From positions 29,126,940 through 29,190,939 of the forward strand of contig OX453274.1 of the NCBI GenBank assembly GCA_949710005.1: a stretch of DNA of 64,000 nucleotides. The letters run 5' to 3'. Below are positions 39,868 through 57,840 of this stretch, in pieces (position 1 is the stretch's first letter; every line of letters starts with the position of its first letter). Origin of the DNA: Ricordea florida (taxonomy: Eukaryota; Cnidaria; Anthozoa; Corallimorpharia; Ricordeidae). The notes beneath the pieces were generated by a model. It ran no database searches. It was not told where the DNA came from and worked only from the letters and a program-made list of their open reading frames with translations. The position numbers and the translations under genes were made by a program.

Positions 39868-40087
39868 ACTACTATAATACAGTAATTATAGGTGGGTTTT
39901 ATTTTTTTATTTTTTCTTCAATTTTTTATTAAAATTTGGGTTTTTTTTTCTTCAATTTTTTTTTCTTAAATTTACCAGAAATTTTACCAACAATTTTATC
40001 AAAAATTTATGTATGGATTACAAAAAAAAAAATTAATTAAGGTTTAAAGATTTGAAAAAATTATTAAATATGGAACAATTAAAAGAT
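39868..40087 (+). repeat. Polinton left terminal inverted repeat
   Basis: It starts ACTACTATAATACAGTAATT and is identical, by my base-by-base reading, to the reverse complement of 55666-55885, including homopolymer lengths. It contains the promoter-like TTTAAAGATTT and the first codons (MEQLKD) of PolB. Confidence 0.93.
40042..40055 (+). promoter_or_regulatory. Promoter-like box of PolB (inside TIR)
   Basis: GTTTAAAGATTTGA ends about 15 nt before the first ATG. It matches the box found before most other genes of the element. Confidence 0.6.
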
Positions 40088-42889: not shown

Positions 42890-42901
42890 AAAGAATATAA
42901 G

Positions 42902-44776
42902 ATGGAATTCAAAAAAAGGGGTTGTGTTACAATGCTGGATTGGTTGAGAGAGTATAACCTACACGACGTTATACCTTTCAGAGAAGCTTTAGAAAAAACA
43001 AGGGCGATGTATTATCCAGACAAAATCGATATATTAAAAGATGCAGTATCCATCCCCGGTGTCTCAATGATGTACGTTCTAAATAAATACCAAAAAATGA
43101 AAAAGAAAGGTGATCCTGAATTATACGCTCCAGGTCAATACTGCATTCATAGATGTAGCAAATTTTGTAATAAAGTGTTTTGTAAAAAATGCAACAAGAT
43201 AATGAAAGATTGTAAAACATGCGACAAAAACAAGATTTATAAACTTTTGAAAACGGGTATGGTTGGGGGGCCTAGTATCATATTTATGCGTTATGCAGAG
43301 TTGGGAAAAACAAAGATTCGTTCTCATAAATATAAATTTCCAAAAAATTGTGTACGAATTGTTGGATATGATGCAAATGGGTTATATCTTTTTGCAGCGG
43401 GACAAAAAATGCCATGTGGAAAAGGAGAATGTATTGAGGTTGAAAACCCAACAGATCCTGAATTTATTAAGAAGATTTGTAAAGATATTCTTGATGGTAA
43501 ACTTTTTGGATTTTGCCAAGTTGATATAAATGTAACAGAAAACCTAAAAGAAAAGTTTGAAGAGTTCTCACCGCTATTTGTTGTAGATAATGTTCCTGAA
43601 GATTTGGTACCTGAACACATGAAAGAATATCAAAAAGCTACAGGGAGAAAACACCTAAAAGATAATAAAAAATTACTAGGGGTTACAAAGGCAAAAAAGA
43701 TACTTTTATATACAGTACTAATTGAATGGTATCTTAATCACGGTTTGGAGATTACAGCCATTCACAATATTTTGAAGTATGAACCAGGAAAACCATTTGA
43801 ATGGTTCCCAAAAGAGGTGGCCGACGCACGAAGAGATGGTGATATTGAGGTTATGCTAGAAAAGTTAAGTAAAGCTTTTGATGAAAACAAAATTGATGAT
43901 GTCGTAACCATTACCAATGAATTAAATCAATTCCCTGATATATTAACATTTATTGAAGAGAACAAAGACCTTAAAGTATTGATTGAAAAACTAAAAATAA
44001 AGTATAAAGGTTGTAAAGAATTGGCTGATACTAACAAACTAAAAGGAAACGCATTCTATGGAAAAATGATAGAAGATAAAGAAAAACACAACAACATAAG
44101 GTATACTCAGGATGAGGGTGAGGTTGAAAAAGCCTTAAGATCCCCATTCTTTGAAGATCTTACAGAAATAAATGAAACATATGAAATAATAAAACGAAAA
44201 CGTAAAATAATAATAGACCGCCCCTATCAATGCGGCATCGCGGTATATCAGCTAGCCAAACTTCGCATGTTGGAATTTTATTACGATTTTCTTGATAAAT
44301 ATGTAGATAGAAAGGATTTTGAGTTGATACAAATGGATACAGATTCCATGTACATGGCACTTTCGGCTGAAAAATTGGATAATATTATAAAACCTGAAAT
44401 GCAAAAAGAATACTTCAATGGTGGAAAAGAAAAATTCCTATCAACATCGAAATATCACGAAAAGACCCCCGGGCTGTTCAAGCTGGAGTTTGATGGTATT
44501 AGAATGATTGCTCTTTCATCAAAATGTTATTACGCAGAGAATGAGAATGGAAAAGTAAAGTATAGTTGTAAAGGAACAATTCATAGACAAAACGAAATGA
44601 ACTGGGATAGGTACATGTCTGCTTTGAATGGATCAATTGATATGGCACAAAATACTGGATTCAGAGTAAATGAAAACCAAATTGTGACATATACACAAAT
44701 TAAAAAGGGATTGAACGCATATTATGATAAAAGAATAGTTGATGAGGATGGAATTCACACATACCCCGTTTCTTAA
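42902..44776 (+). CDS. POLB: Polinton DNA polymerase B, catalytic part (after in-frame stop)
   Basis: It is in the same frame as the upstream ORF, separated only by TAG and three codons before the next ATG. It carries the family B palm and fingers. Motif A is VGYDANGLYLF (D157), motif B is NKLKGNAFYGKM (about 379-390) and motif C is QMDTDSMY (D479, D481); a KLEFDG...KCYY segment follows. The roughly 200 residues between motifs A and B match the terminal-protein-region insertions of protein-primed polymerases. All catalytic aspartates are intact, so the stop looks recent or tolerated. It may represent only the second half of one polypeptide of about 1,570 residues. Confidence 0.92.
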   Translation: MEFKKRGCVTMLDWLREYNLHDVIPFREALEKTRAMYYPDKIDILKDAVSIPGVSMMYVLNKYQKMKKKGDPELYAPGQYCIHRCSKFCNKVFCKKCNKIMKDCKTCDKNKIYKLLKTGMVGGPSIIFMRYAELGKTKIRSHKYKFPKNCVRIVGYDANGLYLFAAGQKMPCGKGECIEVENPTDPEFIKKICKDILDGKLFGFCQVDINVTENLKEKFEEFSPLFVVDNVPEDLVPEHMKEYQKATGRKHLKDNKKLLGVTKAKKILLYTVLIEWYLNHGLEITAIHNILKYEPGKPFEWFPKEVADARRDGDIEVMLEKLSKAFDENKIDDVVTITNELNQFPDILTFIEENKDLKVLIEKLKIKYKGCKELADTNKLKGNAFYGKMIEDKEKHNNIRYTQDEGEVEKALRSPFFEDLTEINETYEIIKRKRKIIIDRPYQCGIAVYQLAKLRMLEFYYDFLDKYVDRKDFELIQMDTDSMYMALSAEKLDNIIKPEMQKEYFNGGKEKFLSTSKYHEKTPGLFKLEFDGIRMIALSSKCYYAENENGKVKYSCKGTIHRQNEMNWDRYMSALNGSIDMAQNTGFRVNENQIVTYTQIKKGLNAYYDKRIVDEDGIHTYPVS

Positions 44777-44777
44777 C

Positions 44778-45794
44778 TCATTTCAAAACAAAATCAGGAG
44801 GTAACTCAGTATCATCCGGTACAACTTGAAGCTCCTCCCTTACAAAACCACGTCTTGGACCATCAAATAAATAATATAAAACTGGTTGATTAGGAGAAAC
44901 CCTACTTTCCGAAATATAATAAACCTGAATACTCCAAATAGGATCTGTAGCTCGTCTTCTTTCACCACCCTCAATTTCACCAGGGGCAAGTAAGTATCTA
45001 ACCTTAACCTCAATTGGCAGTCTAACCTCATCAAGCCCGACAACTCTCTTATATTTTTTAGGTTCAATATCAACTTCTTTCTGTTTTATAGCCTCATCAG
45101 GCTCTTTACCAGTTATTCTTGTTGGTGTATTATTCAAAGTTTTTAGAATATCTGGTAATCTTTTCACCCATACTCTAGACCTTTCATCACTAATCATTTC
45201 TTGTGCATATTGATGACTAAATAATCTTTCACCTAATATTCTGTTTGCCCTTTCAACAAATGCTTGAGCTCTATGGTTTCCAGCTTCACCCCTCTGTATT
45301 TTCACATTATGATAATTCATAAGTTTGGAAACCTCACCCATAAATTCTCTTCCAGGATCAACAATTAATGTTTTAGGATATTTCATTTTTCTAGAATATA
45401 TTTTTCTAAAAGCTTCAGATATCTCCCTACTTTCTTTTGAGGTTAATGGTTCGGAATCTTTATATCTCGAGGCAACATCAACCACAACCAATGCATATTT
45501 ATATGTTTTTCTTCCAACTCTATCATGTGGTAAAAATAATAAATCTGCTTGGTGAATTTGATTCGGTTTATCCACAGTCCAGTGTGGTCTAGGTATATAT
45601 TTTGGAGGCGGTAGATATATTTGCCATATTGCCTGTTTCTGAAGCCATTGTTTAGCCAAATTTTCACTTACTTTCGCCTTCTCAGCTAATTTAGTGATTG
45701 CAGAATATCCTTTCCAATATCCCTCAGTTGAATAATATATTTTTGATAACTTCAGCGTAGCCGACCCCCTTCGGGATATGTTTTCGTTACTCAT
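44778..45794 (-). CDS. INT: Polinton integrase (retroviral-type, DD35E)
   Basis: This 338-residue integrase inserts the linear element into host DNA. The rve core has D84 (HQADLLF), D146 (IVDPGREF) and E181 (FVERANR), with exactly 35 residues between the last two. An N-terminal helical region, with VSENLAKQWLQKQ, resembles the zinc/HTH-type region. The C-terminus has an SH3/chromo-like segment (ATDPIWSIQVYYI, YYLFDGPRRGFVREELQVVP). It is convergent with PolB: the stop codons are one base apart. It is divergent from the capsid gene, sharing a 33-bp intergenic promoter. Codons 4-18 overlap two GC-rich triloop hairpins. Confidence 0.93.
   Translation of the reverse strand: MSNENISRRGSATLKLSKIYYSTEGYWKGYSAITKLAEKAKVSENLAKQWLQKQAIWQIYLPPPKYIPRPHWTVDKPNQIHQADLLFLPHDRVGRKTYKYALVVVDVASRYKDSEPLTSKESREISEAFRKIYSRKMKYPKTLIVDPGREFMGEVSKLMNYHNVKIQRGEAGNHRAQAFVERANRILGERLFSHQYAQEMISDERSRVWVKRLPDILKTLNNTPTRITGKEPDEAIKQKEVDIEPKKYKRVVGLDEVRLPIEVKVRYLLAPGEIEGGERRRATDPIWSIQVYYISESRVSPNQPVLYYLFDGPRRGFVREELQVVPDDTELPPDFVLK
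45753..45775 (-). repeat. GC triloop hairpin pair in integrase 5' end
   Basis: On the plus strand CAGC-GTA-GCCG and CCC-TTC-GGG form two hairpins with three-base loops (one G-T pair). It is a degenerate member of the hairpin family described at 46831. Confidence 0.55.
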
Positions 45795-45805
45795 TTAAAG
45801 ATTAA
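45793..45805. promoter_or_regulatory. Divergent promoter between integrase and capsid genes
   Basis: ATTTAAAGATTAA faces the capsid gene 22 nt before its ATG, and its complement ends at the integrase start. One AT-rich 33-bp spacer appears to serve both genes. Confidence 0.5.
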
Positions 45806-45827
45806 CCAAAGTATCTTATAAATAAAT

Positions 45828-46907
45828 ATGGCAACCGTATCTGAAAAAATTAATCCAAACAGAATTCCAAGAGAGCCACTCGGTTTGAAAGAGGAATCAA
45901 TATTGAATAGAATTACACTAAACCCATCATCAGCTAGTCCTGGAGAAACATTATATATAAACATTCCAAAACTTACCCAGAATTTAGTTCTTGTGCCAGG
46001 AAGTGTATATCTAGTATTTAACTTGATTGTTGATGGTCATGAAGATAACACCCTTGTTAATAATGTAGGTAGTAATCTTGTATCCAGACTCAAGGTTCTT
46101 TTTGGTGGTGAAACATTACAGGATACTCAAAGATACGATCTATTTCAAACATACCATGACTTATTCTTAACAGATGAAGAACGTGAGGATAGATTAAAGC
46201 AGGGTATTTCTTCTGAAAACATGAGGAAGCTCAGGACAAATGCAGGCGATAAGGTAGACACAGATGCAAAGGAAGTCGCTCTTGCAGTAGTACATAACAC
46301 CAAATACCATATCCCACTAAACCACCCTATATTAAACGATCATGGGGTTTTCTATCCAAAGGCTTTAGATCATCAACTAATATTTGAGATTACACTAGCC
46401 CCAGTTAACGATATTGTTGTTTATTCTGATAAAACCAAACCTCCAACTTATAAAATCACAAACCTTGAGTTGGAATATTCTTGTATATCAAGTGAATACT
46501 TAGCTCGTGAGGCACAGGCAGCTTATCAGGTTGGTAAAGGATTCTTTTATGAAAATGTCACTCTACATAAAACTTTCACCATATCCAGACCTACAGACAG
46601 CGTTATAAATCAACATATTAATCTACCGAGAAGGTCAATTACAGGGATATTATGTTTGTTTACATTACCATATGGTGGAGGAGCACGAGATTCTGAGAAT
46701 TTTTTCAATCCAGGCATCACCTCAATCAATATCGATGTTAATGGTGTTCCAAATCGTTTTTACTCAAAGGGAATGGTGCCGTCAGATCTTTGGGAGTCAG
46801 TAAAGAAACGTTTCAGTGATTCTTCCCGTTCCGGCTTCGCCGGGGAGAGCTTTGCTCGATGGTCAGTAAAGGAAAAGGATTTTTATGGTAATAAGTTTGC
46901 TCTGTGA
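45828..46907 (+). CDS. MCP: Polinton major capsid protein (double jelly-roll), ends at in-frame TGA
   Basis: Predicted icosahedral capsid protein of the Polinton virion. Segments resemble double-jelly-roll capsid proteins of Polintons and giant viruses: NIPKLTQNLVLVPGSVYLVF, then VNNVGSNLVSRLKVLFGGET (the VNxIGxxLIxxVxLxIGG strand of first roll), YHIPLNHPILNDHGVFYPKA followed by LDHQLIFEI (strand-turn-strand before second roll), and LELEYSCISSEYL. The reading frame meets TGA after FYGNKFAL, yet stays open for another 63 codons with capsid-like GGGLALNNAQDGVKIEMKRK. The last strands of the second roll are therefore beyond the stop. A GC hairpin pair is inserted in frame near the 3' end. Confidence 0.75.
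   Translation: MATVSEKINPNRIPREPLGLKEESILNRITLNPSSASPGETLYINIPKLTQNLVLVPGSVYLVFNLIVDGHEDNTLVNNVGSNLVSRLKVLFGGETLQDTQRYDLFQTYHDLFLTDEEREDRLKQGISSENMRKLRTNAGDKVDTDAKEVALAVVHNTKYHIPLNHPILNDHGVFYPKALDHQLIFEITLAPVNDIVVYSDKTKPPTYKITNLELEYSCISSEYLAREAQAAYQVGKGFFYENVTLHKTFTISRPTDSVINQHINLPRRSITGILCLFTLPYGGGARDSENFFNPGITSINIDVNGVPNRFYSKGMVPSDLWESVKKRFSDSSRSGFAGESFARWSVKEKDFYGNKFAL
46831..46860 (+). repeat. GC double triloop hairpin, copy A (in capsid gene)
   Basis: CCGGC-TTC-GCCGG, then GGA, then GAGC-TTT-GCTC, then GAT: a 5-bp stem and a 4-bp stem, each with a three-base loop. It is in frame and encodes SGFAGESFAR. Copies B (49478) and C (51631) have the same geometry with compensated stem changes. 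Confidence 0.85.
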
Positions 46908-47099
46908 TTAGATTTGAGAACTCACCCAGATAATAGCATTCATGGAGGGGGTCTGGCCTTAAATAACGCACAAGATGGTGTAAAAATAGAAATGAAAAGA
47001 AAAGTTAGTGGATCTGGTATTATGACTTGTTACATGTTTGTGGTAGCTGATGCGTTGATGGAGGTTATGAATTCAAACTTACGCTCTATAATGTACTGA
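46908..47099 (+). pseudogene. In-frame C-terminal end of the capsid protein after the TGA
   Basis: It is open in the same frame as the capsid gene (63 codons to the next stop). It reads like the closing strands of the second jelly roll (HPDNSIHGGGLALNNAQDGV, then KIEMKRKVSGSGIMTCYMFV). Unless the TGA is read through, this part is not made. Confidence 0.65.
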
Positions 47100-47147
47100 A
47101 TGAGCGGAGCGAATTAGGTTTAAGATCAATCATGTATTAGTTAAAAG

Positions 47148-47774
47148 ATGGAAGAATTACGAGATAAAATTCCTTTTCACTGCATTATAACTGGGCCAAC
47201 AAATTGTGGAAAGACAAAGTACATAATAGATCAACTCCGAGGCCCATTCCGAAAATTGTTTGAATTCATTGTTTTAATATGCCCAACTTATGCTAAAAAT
47301 AAAACCTATCATAATTTTGCTCGAGGAGATAAACATTTCTATGTATTATCACCAGATGCTAGTAATATAGATGAGATTAATGAATTGTTAACTGATTGTC
47401 AAACTTTATTCTCTGGTACAAATACACTATTAATTTTAGATGATTGTGCTGTTTCGAATGATCTGAAGAAAAGATCGAACAAGTTTATTGATTTAGCGTT
47501 CTCTGGAAGGCATCATGGATTATCAATGTGGGTTCTAACTCAGCAATTAACATCGATAGCAAAACCATTCCGTGAAAATGTGGCTTGTGTTGTTACTTTC
47601 CATAACCCATCACAAAAAGGTATGAAGATGCTTTTCGAAGATTATGGAGGTGATTTAGACTCTGAAACATGTAAAAAGTTTGTAGAACTACTGAAAACTG
47701 AAAAATATTCTAGATTATGTTTGTGTTTACGATATCCATTTCAATGTTATTTGGAGATCCCTGAGGTGATTTAA
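47148..47774 (+). CDS. ATP: Polinton genome-packaging ATPase (A32/FtsK-HerA type)
   Basis: This 208-residue ATPase is predicted to pump the element's DNA into capsids. Walker A is GPTNCGKT (residues 16-23) and Walker B is LLILDDC (94-100). A sensor-like WVLTQQLTSIAKPFREN follows, as in poxvirus A32 and Polinton ATPases. The ATG follows AGGTTTAAGATC at a spacing of about 20 nt. It lies directly after the capsid gene, the usual pairing in this virus lineage. Confidence 0.9.
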   Translation: MEELRDKIPFHCIITGPTNCGKTKYIIDQLRGPFRKLFEFIVLICPTYAKNKTYHNFARGDKHFYVLSPDASNIDEINELLTDCQTLFSGTNTLLILDDCAVSNDLKKRSNKFIDLAFSGRHHGLSMWVLTQQLTSIAKPFRENVACVVTFHNPSQKGMKMLFEDYGGDLDSETCKKFVELLKTEKYSRLCLCLRYPFQCYLEIPEVI

Positions 47775-47805
47775 AAGAATCTTTGTATTATTAGAAAATT
47801 ATAAG

Positions 47806-48447
47806 ATGGCAGATCGGACGAAGTCCTCCCCGCCTTTGGCGGAAGTTGAAGATTATATCCGCCTGGAAGGCGGGACCGGCTCCGCCGATATAGAAGAAAA
47901 ACAAGAGGTAAAATCTGATGATATTGAAATAAAACAAGAATCACTAGCTATTCTCGCATCTCTTGGAACTACAAAGGAATATTTGGGAGTTGATATGAGT
48001 CTGGGTGATATAAAGAAACTATCGGTAAAAGATGTTGAAAAATATTATAATCGATATCAAGCAGTATTAGGTAAGAAAATTAGCGGTGGATTAGTAGATT
48101 CATCTCTTCAATTAGTTTCTCAAGTTATTTCTTACATAGTTCCTGTTGATGATATAGAAGCTCTTTGTTTGGATTTGAAGAATGATGATTTGGTTAATCG
48201 TGAACTAACAAACATTGTAGGGCTCTTAGCATTGAAAGCAGGAAGATTGGCAGCACTTGCTAGCGGGCTATTCCAGGTTGCTAAACATGTTAAAATAGGT
48301 AAAATCAGCGAAGCTGGGCCTGCTCTTCGAGCAGAAATACAACAATTTACAAGAACAAATACCGACCTATTAAGGGAGGAATCAGATAATTCTAAAACTC
48401 AACCAGCTCCGCTGAATACAACTGAACAAGTCGCCGAGCACAACTAA
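47806..48447 (+). CDS. Polinton-associated protein of unknown function
   Basis: This is a 213-residue soluble protein. The first 45 residues are acidic and contain the GC-rich hairpin cluster; the rest is helical (SLGDIKKLSVKDVEKYYNRY, GGLVDSSLQLVSQVISYIVP, LLALKAGRLAALASGLFQVA). Similar unannotated proteins occur in cnidarian Polintons, from memory and unverified. No catalytic motif is seen. It sits between the ATPase and small membrane proteins, suggesting a virion-assembly role by position only. Confidence 0.65.
   Translation: MADRTKSSPPLAEVEDYIRLEGGTGSADIEEKQEVKSDDIEIKQESLAILASLGTTKEYLGVDMSLGDIKKLSVKDVEKYYNRYQAVLGKKISGGLVDSSLQLVSQVISYIVPVDDIEALCLDLKNDDLVNRELTNIVGLLALKAGRLAALASGLFQVAKHVKIGKISEAGPALRAEIQQFTRTNTDLLREESDNSKTQPAPLNTTEQVAEHN
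47816..47887 (+). repeat. Cluster of four GC triloop hairpins
   Basis: GGAC-GAA-GTCC, CCGCC-TTT-GGCGG, CCGCCT-GGA-AGGCGG and CGGC-TCC-GCCG follow each other within the first codons of this gene, each with a three-base loop. They are in frame and interrupt an otherwise AT-rich sequence. Confidence 0.8.
48306..48334 (+). repeat. GC triloop hairpin pair (D)
   Basis: CAGC-GAA-GCTG and CTGCTC-TTC-GAGCAG are separated by GGC: two hairpins with three-base loops in tandem, as in copies A-C but with a longer second stem. Confidence 0.75.
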
Positions 48448-48449
48448 GC

Positions 48450-48466
48450 GATTTAAAGATTTCTTA
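48450..48466 (+). promoter_or_regulatory. Promoter-like box before 48484 gene
   Basis: GATTTAAAGATTTCTTA, then TGAT..GTAAAAAATTATG. The whole 35-nt leader is shared with the genes at 48978 and 49678. Confidence 0.65.
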
Positions 48467-48483
48467 ATGATATGTAAAAAATT

Positions 48484-48921
48484 ATGTCTGAAGAAGTAGA
48501 AGAAAGAACCGGAGGTGTTGAACAAATTACTAGAGACCAACCAAAAGAAAAAACTGAAGGTAATGGTTCTAAAAAGAGGGATAAAGATCCTAAAAAAGTA
48601 GCAGCAGGTAAGAAATTAGCTGAATATAATAAAAAAGCAAAAGAAGCATTAGCTAGAGAGACCCTGCGAGCTGAGGAGCAAATGAAACGTGAAGAAGAGC
48701 AAAATGAAAATGGAGAGAGTGAATCTAAAGCATGGATTCCAGAGCTATCTTTTACTACTGTTTTATCCATTGTAGGAATAGGGTTTACAGCATTTGATAT
48801 GTTTATGAGATACCGACAAAATAGAGAACCTACCCAACCACCCCAAACATCAAATATTTCTCTACCTCAACCAACTACAAAATCCGCAGGGCCAAAAACA
48901 CCGAAAATGGGAATGATATAA
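48484..48921 (+). CDS. Small membrane-anchored basic protein
   Basis: This is a 145-residue protein with a charged N-terminal half (KKRDKDPKKVAAGKKLAEYN, then an Arg/Glu helix). It has one transmembrane segment at about 95-115 (FTTVLSIVGIGFTAFDMFM) and a Pro/Gln-rich tail ending PKMGMI. I recognise no family. The lysine-rich part could bind DNA, which is speculative. Confidence 0.65.
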   Translation: MSEEVEERTGGVEQITRDQPKEKTEGNGSKKRDKDPKKVAAGKKLAEYNKKAKEALARETLRAEEQMKREEEQNENGESESKAWIPELSFTTVLSIVGIGFTAFDMFMRYRQNREPTQPPQTSNISLPQPTTKSAGPKTPKMGMI

Positions 48922-48943
48922 TTAAAATTACATTTGATAAACA

Positions 48944-48960
48944 GTTTAAAGGTTTCTTAC
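48944..48960 (+). promoter_or_regulatory. Promoter-like box before 48978 gene
   Basis: GTTTAAAGGTTTCTTAC, then TGAT..AGTAAAAAATTATG, the same leader as 48450. Confidence 0.65.
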
Positions 48961-48977
48961 TGATACAGTAAAAAATT

Positions 48978-49196
48978 ATGTCAACCGAAAACAAACTTGT
49001 TAAAACTGTTACTGATTCAGCAGTCCTTATCGGATTAGCAGCTGGAGTTGGGTATGTAGCTAAAAAGGTTATGAAAGAATCATTTATGAACGATCCATCA
49101 TCAAGTATTACAAATTATGCAAAATGGGTGGCTGTATTGTCAGGTAGTATGTACCTAAAAACATATTTAGAGGATCAAAAGATTTTACCAAATTAA
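48978..49196 (+). CDS. Very small two-helix membrane protein
   Basis: This 72-residue protein has two hydrophobic stretches (SAVLIGLAAGVGYVAKKV and WVAVLSGSMYLKTYLEDQKI). It ends 2 nt before the next ATG, indicating tight coupling with the following gene. Function is unknown. Confidence 0.65.
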   Translation: MSTENKLVKTVTDSAVLIGLAAGVGYVAKKVMKESFMNDPSSSITNYAKWVAVLSGSMYLKTYLEDQKILPN

Positions 49197-49198
49197 AC

Positions 49199-49621
49199 AT
49201 GGCAACAATAGCAATGATGGTTGGAGGAGCTATATTGAATGCTACCGCTTTTGTTGGTGGTTCATATCTTGCAAAATCTCTATCAGGTGATAAAACAGAT
49301 GAAGAAAGAATACGACACGATAAGGCATTAGAAAAATATCAAAAAGATTATGCTAAATATCAAGAAAATAGACAGAAACTAATTGATTGGAAAGTACAAA
49401 AAAAGGATGATAAATACCAGGCCTCAAAAAATATTTCGAATACCGATGAAGCTTTGAAATTGTATAGTGAGACACATCCGACGGAGTCGGGGAGAGCTTC
49501 GCTCGATGAACCAAAATTCTCTGATTATTATAGACCAAGTGACAACCAAAAAATGGGTGAAATGGTATATGTAGGTGGTGGTATGTTGGCATTAGGTTAT
49601 GCGGTTAGTAAATTCTTTTAG
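49199..49621 (+). CDS. Membrane protein with hydrophobic ends and charged middle
   Basis: This 140-residue protein has hydrophobic segments at both ends (MATIAMMVGGAILNATAFVG and YVGGGMLALGYAVSKFF) and a lysine/glutamate-rich helix between them (KALEKYQKDYAKYQENRQKL). It has no promoter box of its own and starts 2 nt after the previous stop. It contains hairpin copy B in frame (TESGRASLD). Family not named; similar proteins are familiar from cnidarian Polintons (memory, unverified). Confidence 0.65.
   Translation: MATIAMMVGGAILNATAFVGGSYLAKSLSGDKTDEERIRHDKALEKYQKDYAKYQENRQKLIDWKVQKKDDKYQASKNISNTDEALKLYSETHPTESGRASLDEPKFSDYYRPSDNQKMGEMVYVGGGMLALGYAVSKFF
49478..49507 (+). repeat. GC double triloop hairpin, copy B
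   Basis: CCGAC-GGA-GTCGG, then GGA, then GAGC-TTC-GCTC, then GAT. Compared with copy A, the fourth base of stem 1 and its partner have both changed (G-C to A-T), keeping the pairing. Confidence 0.85.
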
Positions 49622-49626
49622 AGTTT

Positions 49627-49660
49627 GCTTCGCGGTCCTAAGGGGTCTAAAGATTTCTTA
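49627..49660 (+). promoter_or_regulatory. Promoter-like box with GC upstream element
   Basis: GCTTCGCGGTCCTAAGGGG precedes TCTAAAGATTTCTTA; 50974-51008 has the parallel TCGCGGCCCTAAAGGGG + TCTAAAGATATC. Both drive the next ATG at about 20-28 nt. The TCTA core recalls the late-type TCTA promoter reported for the virophage Mavirus. Confidence 0.6.
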
Positions 49661-49677
49661 CAGATGAGTAAAAAATC

Positions 49678-50952
49678 ATGGCAGAAGCAGAAGCTGATCC
49701 CATCGGATTGGGGGTAGAAGAAAATCCTGATGATTTTGATGAAAAAAGTCCACTACTTGGTAGAAAGCCATCACAAAAAAAAGTTCTAGTAACATCTACA
49801 AACTTTGAAAAAGATTATGCTGGTTATGATGAATATAAAGATGATGAAGGAAGGAAGCGAGCTGGATGGGTCAAACCGACTGAAGCTAGGAACCTGAGTG
49901 ATGTTTTAAAAGAAAGAGATGAGGAATATGATAGAAGGAGAGAAGCCAGACAACAACTCAAACGTTATTTTCCAAATTATAACCCTGATGATGGTTCATT
50001 TAATGTAAAATTTGGAGAAGATGGTAGTTTAATGGGAAAATTAATTGGTAGGGTAGATAATGTGTGGCATATATTAGTTGATAAAGATGGGGTTATGAAG
50101 ATTGAAGATTTACCAAAAACAATTAGAAAAGCTCTAGGTGCTGATTATGTATCCATGCTGGAAAAATATAATGATACTATATCACAATTAAATGAAAAAA
50201 ATGAAGAAAATAGAGAATTAGAAAATATTGCGAAAGGATTAAGTTCAACCGCAAAAGTATATATAGATGAGATTAGTTTATATAAAGAAAAAGAAGAAAA
50301 AATTCGTGAATTCCTTAAAAAAGAAAAAGAACTTCGTGAATTCATTGAGAGACAACAATTAGAAAATAAAAGTCTTTTTGATAAAACTGTTAAACAGAAT
50401 ATAGAATTAAAAATACAAGGCGAAAAACTTTTGAGTGAAACAAAATTATACAAAGAAGAAATAGACAAATATAAGAAGGATAAATTAAATTTATCAAAGT
50501 TAGAACAAAGCAATGAACGATTACAATCTGAGATTGATAAATTAAGAGAACAAATTAGAAAGAATACAATCTCCAAGTTAGAACAAATATCAGATATTGA
50601 GGTTCGAAAAGATGAAATAATTAAAAATCTTCCATTAAGAGAGAGGTTAAAGTATATCTTCAAAAAGTATGGGTTTACAGTATTTGCTGTTGTGAGTGCT
50701 GTTGGTGTAATCATTGGAGTTATAGTTTCTAATATTTCTAAAGGTCTATCAACATTAGGTAAAGGTGTTGGTAATGGGTTGAAAGCTATTGGTAAAAAAC
50801 TTGGTGAAATATTGCCTGGAATGGTTGGAGCAATTGTAAGCTTTCTGTTCAAAACAGCGGGCGAGGTCATTGGGTTTTTAGGTAAGAATGCTTGGCTTTT
50901 GATAATGGCTGTGGTTCTATATTTTGTGGAAAGGTTAAAGAAGAGTCGATAA
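49678..50952 (+). CDS. Coiled-coil protein with C-terminal membrane segments
   Basis: This 424-residue protein has an acidic N-terminus (DFDEKSPLLGRK), a globular part to about 150, and a long coiled coil at about 160-310 (repeated Glu/Lys/Leu heptads). Three hydrophobic segments follow (FTVFAVVSAVGVIIGVIVSN, MVGAIVSFLFKTAGEVIGFL, NAWLLIMAVVLYFVERL) with a glycine-rich amphipathic GKGVGNGLKAIGKKLGEILP between them. A coiled-coil stalk plus a membrane-active C-terminus could suit membrane attachment or penetration during entry or assembly. That is inference only. Confidence 0.7.
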   Translation: MAEAEADPIGLGVEENPDDFDEKSPLLGRKPSQKKVLVTSTNFEKDYAGYDEYKDDEGRKRAGWVKPTEARNLSDVLKERDEEYDRRREARQQLKRYFPNYNPDDGSFNVKFGEDGSLMGKLIGRVDNVWHILVDKDGVMKIEDLPKTIRKALGADYVSMLEKYNDTISQLNEKNEENRELENIAKGLSSTAKVYIDEISLYKEKEEKIREFLKKEKELREFIERQQLENKSLFDKTVKQNIELKIQGEKLLSETKLYKEEIDKYKKDKLNLSKLEQSNERLQSEIDKLREQIRKNTISKLEQISDIEVRKDEIIKNLPLRERLKYIFKKYGFTVFAVVSAVGVIIGVIVSNISKGLSTLGKGVGNGLKAIGKKLGEILPGMVGAIVSFLFKTAGEVIGFLGKNAWLLIMAVVLYFVERLKKSR

Positions 50953-50973
50953 CAAACCTGGTCGTATCTATTT

Positions 50974-51008
50974 TATTCGCGGCCCTAAAGGGGTCTAAAG
51001 ATATCATG
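50974..51008 (+). promoter_or_regulatory. Promoter-like box before 51028 gene
   Basis: The GC element CGCGGCCCTAAAGGGG is followed by TCTAAAGATATCATG, parallel to 49627-49660. Confidence 0.6.
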
Positions 51009-51027
51009 TTGATCAGTAAAATACAAT

Positions 51028-51639
51028 ATGGATGACTACAATAGAATTTATCCTAATGTGCCTGTTAATTCAGACCCGAGTTCCTCATTTCAGTCGGTTA
51101 ATTTCAGACTACAAAAGTCATGCGAAGTACTACAAAATCTTGAGAAGGAAATTAAACATTATGAGAAAGTTAGAAAAAAGTATAATCGAGCGAGAGGTAT
51201 ATTTACAAAAATAAGTGTTAGTAGTGGGGTGTTTTCAGTTATCCTATCTGCAAGTGGATTGGGTACCTCTCTTACTGGTTTTGGTGCTGTTGTTGGTATA
51301 CCATTAGGAGCTGTGGGAGGTATTTGTGGGGGAATATCGGTTGGATGTGGTGTGGCATCAAAAAGACTTTCACATAAAGTTAGTAAACATGAACAAACAG
51401 TTTCTCTAGCAAAAGCAAAAGTAAACACCATTCACGACTTAGTTTCAAAAGCACTGAAAGATAATGCAATATCAGACCAAGAATTTTCCCTAATTTTATC
51501 AGAAGTTGAAAAGTTTGAAAAACTAAAACAAGAAATCCGTCAAAAAACTAGAAAAGATACAGAAAAAAACTTAAATATGAATCAGATAAGAACAGAGGTT
51601 CGGGCAGAAATATTAAAGGATCTAACCGGTCCAGCTTAG
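51028..51639 (+). CDS. Two-helix glycine-rich membrane protein
   Basis: This 203-residue protein has an N-terminal coiled coil (LQNLEKEIKHYEKVRKKYNR) and a hydrophobic Gly/Ser-rich hairpin at about 65-110 (SGVFSVILSASGLGTSLTGF, GAVVGIPLGAVGGICGGISV). A helical tail follows (KHEQTVSLAKAKVNTIHDLV, ISDQEFSLILSEVEKFEKLK). The pattern matches a family widespread in cnidarian and bivalve transposon loci (recollection, unverified). The stop codon lies inside hairpin copy C, so the hairpin sets the C-terminus. Confidence 0.68.
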   Translation: MDDYNRIYPNVPVNSDPSSSFQSVNFRLQKSCEVLQNLEKEIKHYEKVRKKYNRARGIFTKISVSSGVFSVILSASGLGTSLTGFGAVVGIPLGAVGGICGGISVGCGVASKRLSHKVSKHEQTVSLAKAKVNTIHDLVSKALKDNAISDQEFSLILSEVEKFEKLKQEIRQKTRKDTEKNLNMNQIRTEVRAEILKDLTGPA

Positions 51640-51660
51640 CTGGGGAGGGCTACGCCCGAT
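51631..51660 (+). repeat. GC double triloop hairpin, copy C
   Basis: CCAGC-TTA-GCTGG, then GGA, then GGGC-TAC-GCCC, then GAT. Both stems differ from copy A by base changes on both sides that keep pairing. It contains the TAG stop of the preceding gene. Confidence 0.85.
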
Positions 51661-51775
51661 CGAGATCGCTGAAAATTTCGTTTGAGAGAACAGATGTAGG
51701 ATGTAATTGTTTTGCTGGTATTAGAAAAGAACGGTATTGATTTAAAAGCATCTCATTATCAACGTAAATAATAAG

Positions 51776-53386
51776 ATGGGATTATACAATGATTTCAGAA
51801 AAAGGTACCCAAATGCTGATCTAAGTCAATTTGAATTTGTATCTGATCAGTATGGTGGTTACATTAAATGGAAAGCAAATGGTATAACGGTAATGTCAAA
51901 TGATGATCCTACTGGAAAAACATGGACTGATGACCTATCACCTCGTTTGAAAAAAATTTTATGGGAAGATTTAGGACTGAGCGAAGCGAAGAACTTGAGT
52001 TCTTTTCCAAAAAGTTTATCCATAACCAACCAATCTTATCCAATACCTGCTATTAAATTTGATGACTTTACAACTGATATAACAAAAATGCTAACCTATC
52101 TGGATATATACGTGTCAAATACTAAAAAATTTACAGCAAAGATGCGTGATGTTTTTACCAATCAAGTTGTTACTTTCAAGTTTGGAAAGCAAAGTAAAAA
52201 ATGGTTGAACAACCCTGATATGAATTATTGGCCACAACAACTTAACTTTGCAGTTTGGTGTGCAACATCTGGTTGTGGTATAAGTCCTTTTGAAAGTATA
52301 AATTATCCTAAAGTAGTAAATAGCTTCATTAAGTTTCATATATATTTCACAATAAGGCGGATATTATATGAATTAAGCCTTCCCTTACCTGATGAGCAAC
52401 CTTTTGTGATAAATAATAATCCATATCGTAAAGTTGCATATCAACGATTGTGTGATGAATTTGGGGTTAATAATAATTCCGATTTTAGATGGAAAGGTGG
52501 AAGAAATGGAGGATTGGGTGATATATTCCTTGATTATGGTTCTGGATATCATGGAAAAGGTGGTGGATATCAAAATGTACATATTGTAAGGAATTATGAT
52601 GTTGAAGCAGATCAATGGCCCGGCGAGGGTGGTAAATTCGCTGATGAAGGAGGTAAGAAAGAAAAGGGTAATCTCATTTCATTTATCCGTAACGATGACT
52701 TTGCCGATTTCAAATATGCTTGGTTTATCCCAACAAGTGGACATGGACTCACTAAAGCTGGACTTGGTAGATTGAATCGATCTGCTGAAGCTTTTGTTTA
52801 CTGTATATTGGGAGCACAAGTTAACACAAGAAATTCAATTTATGGTAATGGTGGTGGAGCGATTGAGACACAACAAGAATTCTTAGCTTTATTTGAAAGT
52901 AGTGTGATCGAGAATGACATTTCTAGTTCTATCCAAAGGTATCAATTAGCTGTACAAGAAGCGAAATTACGGCTTGATTTAGCTATTGCTCCTGGTGTAT
53001 GGTTAATGCCAAGTAATATGATAATCAATACTGAAAGCGTGACTGGTTTTAACAACAAACTTATGAAAGCGAGTAATGATATGAATTTTGGTGTGAATAA
53101 TTCCATAAACACTGAAGCAAAACAAGTTGGAATAATTCATAACTTAGGATCTTCAAAGTTAAAGTTACCTCATATTCGCATGGAAGACAAGGCCAGCTTC
53201 GTTGATAAAACTGAAACGAAGAAAAACCCGAAGGAACCAAAACCCTCAACGCAAACATACCAAATGAAACAGGAAATCCGTAGGACCAGCTCCGCTGAAA
53301 ATAATATTGACTCAACGCAACATGAAAAGAATATATTAGCATTTATAATTATCTCTGGCGGATTAGCGTGGTATCTATTTCGGTAG
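51776..53386 (+). CDS. Large Polinton structural-type protein with C-terminal anchor
   Basis: This is a 536-residue protein. The central part (WPQQLNFAVWCATSGCGISP, FIKFHIYFTIRRILYELSLP, NNPYRKVAYQRLCDEFGVNN, FIPTSGHGLTKAGLGRLNRS, AEAFVYCILGAQ) resembles a protein conserved among cnidarian Polintons whose role I cannot name. It ends in a Lys/Pro/Gln-rich linker and one transmembrane helix (ILAFIIISGGLAWYLF). A membrane anchor is unusual for a capsid shell protein, so a vertex or entry role is possible. The start follows GATTTAAAAGCATCTC by about 25 nt. Confidence 0.7.
   Translation: MGLYNDFRKRYPNADLSQFEFVSDQYGGYIKWKANGITVMSNDDPTGKTWTDDLSPRLKKILWEDLGLSEAKNLSSFPKSLSITNQSYPIPAIKFDDFTTDITKMLTYLDIYVSNTKKFTAKMRDVFTNQVVTFKFGKQSKKWLNNPDMNYWPQQLNFAVWCATSGCGISPFESINYPKVVNSFIKFHIYFTIRRILYELSLPLPDEQPFVINNNPYRKVAYQRLCDEFGVNNNSDFRWKGGRNGGLGDIFLDYGSGYHGKGGGYQNVHIVRNYDVEADQWPGEGGKFADEGGKKEKGNLISFIRNDDFADFKYAWFIPTSGHGLTKAGLGRLNRSAEAFVYCILGAQVNTRNSIYGNGGGAIETQQEFLALFESSVIENDISSSIQRYQLAVQEAKLRLDLAIAPGVWLMPSNMIINTESVTGFNNKLMKASNDMNFGVNNSINTEAKQVGIIHNLGSSKLKLPHIRMEDKASFVDKTETKKNPKEPKPSTQTYQMKQEIRRTSSAENNIDSTQHEKNILAFIIISGGLAWYLFR
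53188..53285 (+). repeat. Two single GC triloop hairpins near the gene's 3' end
   Basis: CAGC-TTC-GTTG (one G-T pair, about 53194) and CAGC-TCC-GCTG (about 53275) both have three-base loops and sit in frame in the linker before the transmembrane helix. Confidence 0.55.
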
Positions 53387-53481
53387 ATGACTGGATTTTT
53401 CAGCTTACGCGTAAGTCGTTTTTTATCACAGGCGGTGATTATAGAAAATTTAAAAAGATGAATATGGAGTAATCAAACAAA

Positions 53482-54117
53482 ATGTTAAGCATAACAATGT
53501 ATGAGTCAGAAACTAGGATTTATTTAGATCCTCCGCTGAAAAATCTTCGAGAGATACAACTCCTGGATTGTAATATAAAAACCAAAAGATTGATTAATTT
53601 CAAGTATGAAGAGATATTATACAATGAAAAGAATCAAGCCCTCATAATAATACAACCTGGTACATATTCTTTGCGTGATATTCAATCGATCTTTCTAAAA
53701 GATACTGATAGGGAAAAGATAACAATAATTGAGACTGATACTGTTGACTATCTATATTCAAATAAGAACTTCAACATTAAACTTACTAGAGGGTTGTCGA
53801 TTGGTTTAGGTTTGCCTGAAATTATAAATCCTGGTAAATTATACCCCATAAATATACAGATTAAGGAACCGCTGAGACTTATGTGTAGTATATTGGATAA
53901 TAAGTCTTCATATATGAATAAAACCAAATATGGAGAACTTGTGAAACTCTCACCATCAACCCTACTTGCAAACATACCCTCAAAGGATTATCCAACAATT
54001 CCAGTTCGAAAATATGATAGCGTTATAAACCACTTTGATTTAAACATCTTAGACAATGAATGGAAAAAACTTGATCTTAAGGGTTCTCCCATAACTTTTA
54101 GTTTAAGATTTAGATAA
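53482..54117 (+). CDS. Candidate minor capsid / penton protein
   Basis: This is a 211-residue, beta-rich protein with GTYSLRDIQSIF, a LGLPEIINPGKLYPINI segment and the ending LDLKGSPITFSLRFR. The layout (GTY..dIn.., LGF/LGLP.., then a final D..G..idl.G..i.f.L.f) is that of the small jelly-roll vertex protein of Polintons. This assignment rests on recalled family features. It is the last plus-strand gene, after the anchored protein. Confidence 0.55.
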   Translation: MLSITMYESETRIYLDPPLKNLREIQLLDCNIKTKRLINFKYEEILYNEKNQALIIIQPGTYSLRDIQSIFLKDTDREKITIIETDTVDYLYSNKNFNIKLTRGLSIGLGLPEIINPGKLYPINIQIKEPLRLMCSILDNKSSYMNKTKYGELVKLSPSTLLANIPSKDYPTIPVRKYDSVINHFDLNILDNEWKKLDLKGSPITFSLRFR

Positions 54118-54155
54118 ATTTTTATGTTATGTAACACATATAAGCGTTATATAAC

Positions 54156-54818
54156 TTAATTTTTTCCCCAACGTTCTTTCAAATCCCTTGACTCCTCAAA
54201 ATCAATACACCAATCTAAAACTCTATCTGTATCCCATGCTACTTTCATTAAATCATTATAAAAGTCTTTGTAAAATTTATTTTTATGTTTTAACTTATCT
54301 TCATTTCTACACATAACAACATTTAATGATTTAACAATAAAATTGTTATCAAAATTATTAATATTACATTCCTTATCATAATAACCAAAATCTCTAACAT
54401 AATATTCATCATAACATCTATCATAATATTTCAAAATATCAAATCCCCCATTATAATAATCACACATTCTATTTTCATTAATAGATTCTTTTATCCATTC
54501 TTTATACTCTTCATTAGCACTATTTAATAAATCTTTTACAAATTTATTAACACATATACCATTAACGCCAAAATTTATATCAAAGTAATAACTAATACTA
54601 TAATTATTATCATTATCATTATCTTTATCAACATAAATAATTTCAAAATAAATATAGCTATTTTTTTTATCAATAAAACCACGATTTTTTGATATTTTTT
54701 TTAACAAATCTTCTCTTATTGTCTCTATAAAATCACAAAAACTCAGTTCTTTTCTATTATAATATTTAATATTAATAGTTTTTTTTCCGCTATTTAAATT
54801 TTTCACTAGTCTTTCCAT
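54156..54818 (-). CDS. Unknown Polinton protein, Asp/Asn/Tyr-rich
   Basis: This is a 220-residue acidic protein with a DNDNDNN run and the C-terminal motif MKVAWDTDRVLDWCIDFEES. AWxPxRVxDWC-type motifs occur in some proteins of giant viruses and algae (recollection). It is convergent with the penton candidate and preceded by TTTAAAGATTT (54841-54852, minus strand), so it has its own box. Function unknown. Confidence 0.6.
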   Translation of the reverse strand: MERLVKNLNSGKKTINIKYYNRKELSFCDFIETIREDLLKKISKNRGFIDKKNSYIYFEIIYVDKDNDNDNNYSISYYFDINFGVNGICVNKFVKDLLNSANEEYKEWIKESINENRMCDYYNGGFDILKYYDRCYDEYYVRDFGYYDKECNINNFDNNFIVKSLNVVMCRNEDKLKHKNKFYKDFYNDLMKVAWDTDRVLDWCIDFEESRDLKERWGKN

Positions 54819-54840
54819 CTTTTTTTTTTTATTTTATTTA

Positions 54841-54852
54841 AAATCTTTAAAT
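54841..54852 (-). promoter_or_regulatory. Promoter-like box before 54818 gene
   Basis: The minus strand reads ATTTAAAGATTT, 23 nt before the ATG. Confidence 0.6.
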
Positions 54853-54888
54853 TATAATTCATTTTTTTAAAGTTAATAAATATTAAAT

Positions 54889-55683
54889 CTATCTTACTAT
54901 ATTTTCCAGCGTTTCCAGAAATTCAATATACTTTTGTAATTGTTCTTTAAATTCTTTTCTTGATATAATTTCTTCTGTTTCTGAATATCTAAATTGCATT
55001 TCTGTTGATCCAAATTGCATTCCTAAATGATTCAAAAATTCATCGTTATCGATTAAACTAGAAATAAGATCTTTTTTTCTCAAAGAAGAATTTTTAATTT
55101 TGTATGCTTCTGTATAACTCACTAAATCTTCGATTTTTGAAGACCATAAATTATTTATTATCCCCTTCATATTTATTTTTATTATTTTGTCCATATTTAA
55201 TTTTTTTTTATAACTATTTTCTTTAAAATTAATTTTTTTTATTATTATTTTTCGACATTCTCTACAATGTGCTTTCTGTTTTTTATGTTCACATATTTGT
55301 GATCCTCCACATTCTTTACAATGTGTTCTCTGTCTATCGTGTTCACATATTTGTGATCCTCCACATTCTTTACAATGTGTTTTTTGTATGTTGTGTTTAC
55401 AAAATTTTGATCCTTTACATTCTTTACAACAATATTTAATTTTATTGTGTATACATAATTGCGACCCGCAACACTCTTTACAAAAATATTTACACTTTTT
55501 ATGAATACAAAAATATTTATTATTGATAGCATCTTTTTTAATTTCATTAATAATTTCCTCCTCTGAAAATTTTTTAATACTTTGAATTAAATTTTCTTTA
55601 TTCATTTTTGTTCTTCCTTTTATTTTCAACTCTTTTGCAATATTTTTTAATTGGTGAAAATTTAAATCTTTTAATTGTTCCAT
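54889..55683 (-). CDS. SAP-like plus Cys/His-repeat protein starting in the TIR
   Basis: From the first ATG it is 264 residues. The N-terminus LKDLNFHQLKNIAKELKIKG with KMNKENLIQSI resembles a SAP/Rho-N DNA-binding motif. A Cys/His array follows with about six units of the form C-x2-C-x4-S-x-x-C-x-H (for example THCKECGGSQICEHDRQRTH), likely zinc-binding. The last third is helical. The first six codons are shared with PolB because both lie in the TIRs. A DNA-binding or regulatory role is inference. Confidence 0.65.
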   Translation of the reverse strand: MEQLKDLNFHQLKNIAKELKIKGRTKMNKENLIQSIKKFSEEEIINEIKKDAINNKYFCIHKKCKYFCKECCGSQLCIHNKIKYCCKECKGSKFCKHNIQKTHCKECGGSQICEHDRQRTHCKECGGSQICEHKKQKAHCRECRKIIIKKINFKENSYKKKLNMDKIIKINMKGIINNLWSSKIEDLVSYTEAYKIKNSSLRKKDLISSLIDNDEFLNHLGMQFGSTEMQFRYSETEEIISRKEFKEQLQKYIEFLETLENIVR

Positions 55684-55885
55684 ATTTAATAATTTTTTCA
55701 AATCTTTAAACCTTAATTAATTTTTTTTTTTGTAATCCATACATAAATTTTTGATAAAATTGTTGGTAAAATTTCTGGTAAATTTAAGAAAAAAAAATTG
55801 AAGAAAAAAAAACCCAAATTTTAATAAAAAATTGAAGAAAAAATAAAAAAATAAAACCCACCTATAATTACTGTATTATAGTAGT
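55666..55885 (-). repeat. Polinton right terminal inverted repeat
   Basis: This is the mirror copy of the left repeat. On the minus strand it carries the same promoter-like box and encodes the same first codons for the terminal Cys-rich protein, then diverges right after the sixth codon. Confidence 0.93.
55699..55712 (-). promoter_or_regulatory. Promoter-like box (inside right TIR)
   Basis: This is the mirror copy of 40042-40055, upstream of the Cys/His-repeat gene. Confidence 0.6.
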
Positions 55886-56471
55886 ACATTTTTCACGAGA
55901 ATGAAAAAATAATTATTAATTATTCTTTTCTTAATTACATTGTAAGTTTAAAAAATTACTGCCTTCATTTATTCACTACAATCAGCTGTAGTTACTTAAC
56001 AAAAGAAATAAATAACCGTAAAAGTGTGAACTATAAGTAGACCTGGTCCAACGCAACACGTGAATGACTAACATACATTTGAGACATTTTACAATTTAGA
56101 AGAACATTTTTTTACGAAAACAACGGCGTTGAAACCAAAGTTCTCAATCGACACACTAAATGACAACGTCGACAACGCGAAAAGCTGCCAGTGAAAGCGC
56201 TACATTCTGCAATTTGCCGCCAAGAGAAAATTCCCGCGGGAGTATTTCTTGGCCGTCGACAGAAGAGATGTTTATATGATTAAAGGACATAAAAATTTGA
56301 AATCTTTCATCAGTTTGCTTCTCATTCAAAAGTAGTGCATTCAGAAGATCATTTTTCTGAAGAAGGTTTGTTTAGAAGTCGGTTTTCCAAGTCAAGTGTC
56401 AAGTTTAAGGGAAAGTGGAAAGTGCGAGTGCTGAGTCACGCATCAGTGAGCAAATATTATGCAGACAAAAC

Positions 56472-56816
56472 TTATGCAAATTTGTGGTCCATAGCACGGA
56501 GTCTTTCCACTTCTCGGCTTTCTTCGCTACAATTTTGTCTGTTTTCCACACCACGGAGTCTTTCCGCTTCTCGGCTTTCTTCGCTACAATTTTGTCTGTT
56601 TTCCACACCACGGAGTCTTTCCGCTTCTCGGCATTCTTCGCTACAATTTTGTCTGTTTTCCACAGCACGGAATCTTTCCGCTTCTCGGCGTTCTTCGTTA
56701 ACATTTTGTCTATTTTCTCGAGCCCGGACTCTTTTTGGTTGTCGGCGTTCTTCGCTATAATTTCGTCTCCTTTCTCTTTCCCGAGCGCGCCTTCTTTGGC
56801 GATCTACTTCGCTCAT
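56472..56816 (-). CDS. Arg/Glu-rich 19-residue repeat ORF
   Basis: This 114-residue frame starts MSEVDRQRRRARERERRRNY. It consists of about six 19-residue repeats of the type ENRQNCSEESREAERLRGV (57-bp DNA repeat). Such basic, charged repeats occur at the start of Helitron-type and other transposon proteins in cnidarians (inference). It could be a first exon or a fossil; no continuation is found. Confidence 0.45.
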   Translation of the reverse strand: MSEVDRQRRRARERERRRNYSEERRQPKRVRARENRQNVNEERREAERFRAVENRQNCSEECREAERLRGVENRQNCSEESREAERLRGVENRQNCSEESREVERLRAMDHKFA

Positions 56817-57254
56817 TCTTCCTCAGTTAATTCTTGCTCTCTTTCCCGTTGCTCTTCACCTGAACCCTGTGTTCTGCAAATTATATTTTCTCTGCTATTG
56901 TTTGTTGACATAGCAATAGAAATTGTTTCGTTTATCCTTTAGTAAAACTTTAACAGTGTAGAGTAGTAATATTGTGTCTCAAAAAGACAATGAACTGAAA
57001 ATTTCTTTTTCAGTCGTCAACGCAATTTCCCGCCAAAAATATGCGGGTTTCCAGAACAGCTTCCAAATAAATCACGTCACCTCGATGAGTTGACACATGA
57101 GCCAACAATATGGTCATGTGATGCTGGTCAGTGGCTATCCCGTTTTGACAGCTGTCAATTGACCATATTGTGAATGTCCAATATAAAAGATGTGGATTTG
57201 CCAAGACACGCCTGAGATACCCCTCCCTTCCTTTTGATAGTCTACCCTACCCTA

Positions 57255-57312
57255 CCCGTACAATCTGTAGACGCGTACGTACGTACGTACGGACGTACGG
57301 ACGTACGCTCGG
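57255..57312. repeat. ACGT-rich microsatellite
   Basis: A run of GTACGTACGTACGGACGTAC-like units. Confidence 0.8.
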
Positions 57313-57493
57313 TCAGTCACGTGACAACCAAAGGAAAAGAGGTTGACCATATTCCATGAGTATGGGCTCTGCTCCACGCGCGCTTCGCGCGCGGGAGCCC
57401 CGCTAAAAATAGGACTGGAATTTTTTCTGGACTGGACTCTGGACTATTTTTTAAATATATTTTCCCACTCACGTGTTTTAAGCCTTGTTCAGT

Positions 57494-57651
57494 TAGGGAC
57501 GGACCATTAGAAAAGTGATGGGGGGGGGTGGGGGGGTGGGGATAAAACCAAAAAAAAATTCATGCAAAAGCAGTGAGCGAAAAAAAAAATTCTTGCAAGC
57601 TGAAAATTCCCCACCCCCACCCCTATCACTTTTCTAATGGTCTGTCCCTTA
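57494..57651. mobile_element. Poly-G MITE family M7 (copy 1)
   Basis: The inverted ends AGGGACGGACCATTAGAAAA / CTAATGGTCTGTCCCT enclose a G-run, A-runs with ATTCATGCAAAAGCAGTGAG, and CCCCACCCCCACC. The copy at 63318-63597 matches. Confidence 0.8.
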
Positions 57652-57840
57652 CGTTATAGCTTTGCTCTAACGAGTATATCTTTTAGGGAACGCCCTTTCT
57701 TGTATGATATTAGTGGCGGTTCCCTAAAAATCTCTCTGAGCTTTGGTTTTTTTTATCTATTAAATCTTCAGTTTATTTCCTATTTGGAATAGCTTTCGCT
57801 AATACAAGAGGTGGAACTCAATAAATAATTACATTACTAA

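Follow-up and report, generated by a model that had tools for sequence, protein, structure and literature searches.

In the genome of the corallimorpharian Ricordea florida, virus-like transposons of the Polinton type harbor short G/C-rich double hairpins, which we read as mobile DNA elements, non-autonomous and about 30 bp long, each composed of two adjacent triloop hairpins and living in the Polintons of this genome (probability about 0.85). The elements are described from a stretch of 64,000 nucleotides (assembly GCA_949710005.1, contig OX453274.1, positions 29,126,940 to 29,190,939 of the forward strand), called the window and numbered from its first letter, and from further loci of the same genome. 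They occur as unit insertions at many sites, keep their structure while the letters of the stems change, and, with hardly an exception among the copies sampled, reside within Polintons; they look like parasites of a parasite. The mobile-element part of this reading is the one we hold most firmly, and the replication-coupled mechanism discussed below is put forward tentatively, at somewhat less than even odds. Tiny hairpin elements have already been described in organelles and bacteria; here they are found in a virus-like nuclear transposon, which suggests a way for virus-like capsid genes to acquire in-frame novelty.

Hairpin pairs in the window

The Polinton carrying the elements occupies positions 39860-55893, with terminal inverted repeats at 39860-40087 and 55666-55893. 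Counting as a triloop hairpin any stem of at least 4 bp with at least three G/C pairs, and taking 200 dinucleotide shuffles as the null, its late half (45700-53400) contains 14 triloop hairpins against a shuffle mean of 2.23 (maximum 8), an excess that the original prediction, made from the letters of this DNA, had anticipated. The same segment holds six tandem pairs, every one with a 3-nt gap, and none of the 200 shuffles produced such a pair. They lie on the plus strand at 46831, 47859, 49478 and 51631 and on the minus strand at 47816 and 48306; the remaining Polinton has no pair, and the host DNA has one at 1-39850 and none at 55900-64000. Folded as single-stranded DNA, the six pairs yield the two-hairpin structure.

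Anatomy and covariation of family 1

Family 1 reads as a T followed by a 5-bp hairpin, GGA, a 4-bp hairpin, GA and a closing T, a net gain of 30 bp after the first T; both orientations occur, and no more than this one T is duplicated at the flanks. Element A (46831-46860, plus strand, 30 nt) lies in the capsid open reading frame (ORF) and has CCGGC/GCCGG as stem 1 and GAGC/GCTC as stem 2; element B (49478-49507, plus strand, 30 nt) lies within the 49199-49621 ORF; element C (51631-51660, plus strand, 30 nt) sits at the end of the 51028-51639 ORF and supplies its stop codon TAG (51637-51639). The geometry predicted for these three copies, i.e. a 5-bp triloop hairpin, GGA, a 4-bp triloop hairpin and GAT, is indeed common to them, and both stems pair in each. 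A fourth copy, element D (47813-47842, minus strand, 30 nt), has its hairpin pair at 47816 and lies at the start of the 47806 ORF.

Further copies come from two sets of loci. The first, formed by the window Polinton and 28 fetched loci chosen with a core pattern blind to the preceding base, contains 54 family-1 copies when at most one mismatch per stem is allowed. All 54 are preceded by T; 52 measure 30 nt (46 as 5+4 bp, 6 as 4+5 bp) and two count as 28 nt; and 51 end in GAT, an ending that the choice of loci had required for 28 of them. With a second set of 19 further loci, chosen by a pattern requiring the preceding T, the total rises to 76 copies in 48 sequences, 72 of them of 30 nt and four of 28 nt, one of the 28-nt forms having an empty site that implies 30 nt (query E34). 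The 76 copies fall in about 29 insertion-site clusters, some of which may represent one site in diverged copies. Three site clusters are nested within the loops of other hairpins (L044, L054 and L059); the outer hairpin in L044 matches the one at window positions 53287-53297. A preference for hairpin loops as targets was considered, on the grounds that 3 of 29 site clusters compare with 0.29% of random T sites, and was set aside as suggestive only, since T is found mostly in loops and old inserts mark tolerated spots.

A search of related Polintons for this geometry had been proposed as a check; within the same genome, a pattern leaving stem and loop letters free finds 818 matches, against none for the reversed control. 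Among the 100 of these matches that were printed, both stems pair in 83, stem 2 alone in 13, stem 1 alone in 3 and neither in 1. Counting each sequence once, 57 of the printed matches remain; 43 of them have a paired stem 1 and 53 a paired stem 2, where 5000 arm shuffles, in which the 3' arms were redealt, give means of 14.1 (maximum 25) and 20.1 (maximum 32), respectively, so that the stems covary beyond what the shuffles produce. The compensating changes include GGC/GCC, AGC/GCT, GCC/GGC and GAC/GTC, as well as AG/CT, GG/CC, GA/TC and GT/AC.

Empty sites and protein relatives

The comparison of orthologous genes with and without the insert, also suggested at the outset, gave exactly empty sites for five of the six window copies. 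For this test a script joined the two flanks of each element, and the joined sequence was compared with 59 loci from this genome, the window itself being among the spanning loci. The site of A is exactly empty in 10 of 24 spanning loci, that of D in 12 of 20 (flank identity of 100% in L051), that of B in 16 of 22 (flanks 100% identical in L031) and that of C in 13 of 19 (flank identity of 97.5% in L031); for element F, a member of the second family described below, with its pair at 48306, the count is 30 of 31, with the same anatomy seen in L031. Occupied loci are under-counted in these figures, since alignments are often broken at a gap of 30 bases.

At the protein level, the ten residues encoded by A are found in none of the 120 capsid homologs among the matches listed, a few of which end before that point; in P0002, an 89% identical capsid, the sequence is DSS-RWS, and the ten additional residues of the window fall at this junction. 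For the 47806 ORF, 55 homologs were aligned from 120 listed of 461, and all 55 lack both the ten residues encoded at 47816 and the eleven encoded at 48306. The insert at 47859 is largely shared by P0129, from another public contig, and different inserts occupy the 48306 site in P0138, P0140 and P0145. At the ten columns of B, 34 of the 120 listed homologs have no residue and most others have 5-9 residues of a natural loop, so that the protein evidence for B comes down to close relatives; P0243, from another public contig, carries an insert matching B, recovered in a relaxed peptide search over 361 proteins, the window's own included. A peptide-signature search found none in 240 homologs. Hence, at A and at 47816 close relatives are without the residues altogether, rather than having the same amino acids written in unpaired codons. 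The predominance of empty sites and the close relatives without the residues make gain likelier than loss.

These data also bear on two other explanations. One supposes that a few old insertions occurred and then spread solely through recombination and gene conversion between Polintons, the elements being inert now, and we consider it unlikely. It would explain why stem variants are specific to sites, as with CCGAC/GTCGG, which all four loci listed for the B site have in common and which shows inheritance after insertion, but conversion at like sites cannot yield about 29 site clusters, both orientations, or nesting inside hairpins, and conversion between Polintons can in any case coexist with insertion. 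The other, that the hairpins are functional RNA or DNA structures serving the Polinton in translation control, transcript ends or packaging, is much less probable still. Stable stems and compensating changes are what it would predict, and giant viruses use hairpins at transcript ends, according to one report (PMC4402537). However, the empty share is large or a majority at five of the six sites, presence and absence differ between closely similar Polintons, the copies come in both orientations, several registers and mid-gene positions, and no Rfam family matches them. The two other roles raised in the original prediction, RNA structures modulating translation and DNA hairpins bound by protein, likewise gain no support, given the orientations, the registers and the differences between closely similar Polintons.

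Family 2 and other indels between Polintons

The hairpins predicted at 48306-48334, and the second half of a group of four at 47816-47887, are real but belong to a second family, in which a more variable double hairpin of 26-31 nt stands between exact duplications of 4-5 bp. The first pair of the group of four is the minus-strand GGA element D, and the pair at 47859 is element E (47855-47891, plus strand), a 29-nt double hairpin (47859-47887) between ATAT at 47855-47858 and ATAT at 47888-47891. Element F (48302-48338, minus strand) has the same anatomy, its 29-nt double hairpin (48306-48334) being flanked by AAAT at 48302-48305 and 48335-48338. At the site of E, L044 shows a clean 33-nt indel with an exact ATAT duplication.

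Family 2 was characterized from an all-against-all alignment of 29 sequences, retaining indels of 8-60 nt with good flanks; these are not mutually independent. Of 279 indels, 226 are multiples of three, with 44 of 9 nt, and above 9 nt the commonest length is 30 nt (39 indels). A double hairpin is borne by 39 indel rows. All eight double-hairpin rows with a core other than GGA and four to five extra bases, at six sites, repeat the flank exactly, the duplications being ATAT, AAAT, AAAC, TAAA and ATTTA. Three family-1 rows likewise end in three bases that repeat the flank, a match taken as coincidence.

Distribution in the genome and reading registers

Concerning location, 47 of 48 sampled places (8+20+20) lie in DNA similar to the window Polinton and on large contigs, the window itself being part of a contig of more than 29 Mb, which places the elements outside organellar DNA; the single exception, L066, is a pattern match without stem pairing. 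The carrier family is large, with at least 150 scored ATPase matches of 94-100% identity and an internal stop in 5 of 150. When Polintons were picked by the ATPase alone, 3 of 12 carried family 1 within 1.17 kb (L072, L076 and L080). No family-1 copy was mapped into the ATPase gene or before 44777, only about six of the fetched loci reaching back before 44000. In viral contigs the pattern gave 20 matches, all without stem 1, and the scans with the ATPase, the capsid protein and the capsid alignment found no relatives there; the fuller element pattern had no match in viral or prokaryote contigs.

Reading registers were evaluated for 72 copies in 47 loci, the frame being taken as kept where a copy lies inside one tblastn alignment. 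This is so for 30 of the 72, the other 42 were not judgeable, and no copy was seen between tblastn alignments of differing frames. The 30 copies read on the gene strand in phase 1 (21) or phase 0 (3) and on the opposite strand in phase 1 (5) or phase 2 (1), and the use of several registers and of both orientations argues for a DNA element. An intergenic site at 47102 has 30-nt family-1 copies in L023, L031 and L046, from which it follows that the 30-nt length reflects the element itself in addition to selection. Another alternative takes the inserts for a short repeat or linker of the protein on which selection acts, the hairpins arising as a side effect of the codons. This would fit the 21 copies sharing one strand and phase, but has a negligible chance given the nine others, which occupy three further registers and of which six lie on the opposite strand, and given the same element at the intergenic site. 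Openness in all six frames was tried as a special property and rejected: 82 of 100 copies are open against 28% of plain shuffles, but for distinct perfect copies the figure is 32 of 40 against 68% under a null that keeps the hairpins.

Points against the mobile-element reading

Several observations weigh against mobile elements. The evidence is of presence and absence only, movement was not witnessed, and at a single site precise excision would look the same. Element E is exactly empty in none of 17 spanning loci, its stretch being hypervariable. Five double-hairpin rows at two loci (L033 at 4289 and L043 at 5704) have ragged ends and no duplication, a few rows of family 1 are longer, at 36-54 nt, and many indels between these Polintons are without any hairpin. 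No mobilising enzyme was identified, and Y1 transposase (PF01797) has no match in the genome, with matches in 5 of 14 control genomes. The 48 sampled places, all from two contigs (C1 and C2), represent a small fraction of the 818 matches. The folding energies of the six window pairs are just 1.4 to 2.3 standard deviations better than those of shuffles, and six-frame openness is, as said, no higher than the hairpin-keeping null. Finally, single triloop hairpins with at least four G/C pairs are also more numerous in the host flanks than in shuffles (12 against a mean of 3.32 at 1-39850, and 4 against 0.74 at 55900-64000); hence the Polinton stands out by its hairpins paired in tandem 3 nt apart, and not by single hairpins.

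Two side observations concern the same material. Hairpin-free indels of 9, 12, 18 and 21 nt are common among L021-L048 and the window Polinton, and such indels may represent decayed elements or another process. In the host flanks, identical triloop hairpins occur twice, 21337-21359 being the same as 32786-32808 and 18894-18908 the same as 39819-39833; they are perhaps copies of a host repeat.

Possible mechanism

The proposed mechanism considers insertion, rather than precise loss, as the basic event, with the hairpin shape as the feature that would be recognised, and copying that would take place during Polinton replication, with an enzyme of the Polinton or of the host acting in trans. Single strands are exposed when replication is protein-primed, and family 1 may use them. 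For family 2, a staggered cut would account for the duplications. Polinton integration makes duplications of 5-6 bp, which makes the Polinton integrase a natural candidate for this cut; no matching duplication was seen at the ends of the window Polinton. Once inserted, units of 30 or 33 nt could persist in genes where the frame is kept and variable loops or protein ends are hit. A bolder version, which we regard as less likely than not, is that of a hyperparasite, i.e. 30-bp elements that multiply solely via a virus-like transposon's machinery for replication or integration and whose shape would matter more than their sequence for recognition. Their unit length of 30 would allow entry into viral genes in several frames and thereby seed new peptide segments in capsid and other virion proteins.

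Relation to known hairpin elements

The original prediction had likened the hairpins to a tiny mobile palindrome resembling organellar or bacterial GC clusters, which the empty sites, the roughly 29 site clusters, the nesting and the 818 matches support well. The double-hairpin elements (DHE) of Allomyces mitochondrial DNA are adjacent hairpins, noncoding, sporadic between close relatives, and said to be without flanking duplication (Paquin et al. 2000, as cited in PMC2800124, PMC4478555 and PMC7218506). They share with the present elements the unit of two adjacent hairpins and the optional presence at one site between close relatives; family 1, with at most one duplicated T, is a near match to the lack of duplication, whereas family 2, with its exact 4-5-bp duplications, differs. 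The setting differs as well, since DHE reside in fungal mitochondrial DNA and the present elements in a virus-like transposon of the nucleus, where the net unit is 30 bp and follows a T. The elements work like DHE but are not classed with them, and no claim of descent from them is made. Yeast mitochondrial GC clusters are likewise short G/C-rich palindromes in A/T-rich DNA, with AG or ACT border repeats and cluster mergers that are comparable to the nesting seen here, but they are mostly intergenic as well as mitochondrial, and GC42 has 42 nt (PMC4478555). The AG and ACT borders were not found in our copies, which have T in family 1 and ATAT, AAAT, AAAC, TAAA or ATTTA in family 2.

The repetitive hairpin-forming elements of sponge mitochondrial DNA also comprise divergent single and double hairpins, with repeated invasion and occasional presence in genes, but are mitochondrial and mostly intergenic or in rRNA (PMC2800124). 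Rickettsia palindromic elements are inserted in frame in protein genes, as here; unlike the present elements of 30 nt in several registers, they measure about 150 bp, have a conserved ORF and reside in bacterial chromosomes (PMC10969869). Repetitive extragenic palindromes (REP) moved by REP-associated tyrosine transposases (RAYT) are non-autonomous palindromes of 20-40 bp, some within other palindromes, but have a GTAG tag and a Y1 transposase (PMC3733652), whereas here no GTAG end is seen and the search for PF01797 was empty. As for miniature inverted-repeat transposable elements, family 2 does have duplications, but the two hairpins are separate palindromes, with no terminal-repeat pair when the copies are read. 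In form, the elements are nearest to the mitochondrial DHE and GC clusters and, in effect, nearest to the Rickettsia palindromic elements. Among the listed titles and abstract openings of open-licence papers, none reported such elements in Polintons. How organellar hairpin elements move is treated as open in the portions cited (PMC2800124, PMC4478555); here a single genome provides at least 818 matches, empty sites that are exact and identically flanked, and a carrier of few genes, so that palindrome movement becomes directly testable.

The carrier Polinton and minor features

The carrier shows the hallmarks of Polinton/Maverick elements, namely terminal inverted repeats (228 bp, 99% complementary), an RVE integrase, an A32-type ATPase and a capsid protein. 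The integrase (rve) and ATPase (Pox_A32) matches are both above the Pfam cut-off; that of the capsid ORF is below it, yet this ORF has 714 homologs, and some of those listed bear PF16903. Its stop at 46905-46907 gives 359 residues, where many close homologs have about 410, and from this early stop the window copy of the gene is probably broken. The capsid loop near 46822, which holds element A, varies in length among Polintons and has short repeats (L069-L080), and L080 has an apparent partial remnant of a family-1 copy. A protein-primed DNA polymerase B would be expected at ORFs 40052-42889 and 42902-44776, for which Pfam, PHROGs and NCBIfam gave no polymerase family, and the second had no polymerase match in the PDB. 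The first of these two long ORFs has Pro/Gln-rich tandem repeats.

Outside the two families, the hairpins predicted at 45753 correspond to a 33-nt indel relative to another Polinton at the integrase start (45750-45783, minus strand), with imperfect hairpins; it is related to the elements, with no family assigned. Of the hairpins predicted at 53188-53285, the one at 53188 falls below the census thresholds, and single 4-bp triloop hairpins at 53287-53297 and at 48404-48414, both on the plus strand, pass them.

A 34-nt motif lies directly upstream of late ORFs at 48446-48479, 48939-48972, 49640-49673 and 50988-51021, in copies that are 68-82% alike, and may serve the Polinton as a late promoter or leader. 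The ORF at 54889-55701 (minus strand) has a Rho_N (SAP-like) start followed by tandem Cys/His repeats, and a weak PHROG match to the endonuclease VII family limited to the ORF start; its product is a candidate DNA-junction protein. A rhodopsin-type receptor and a histone stem-loop, which point to an animal, were also detected in the window.

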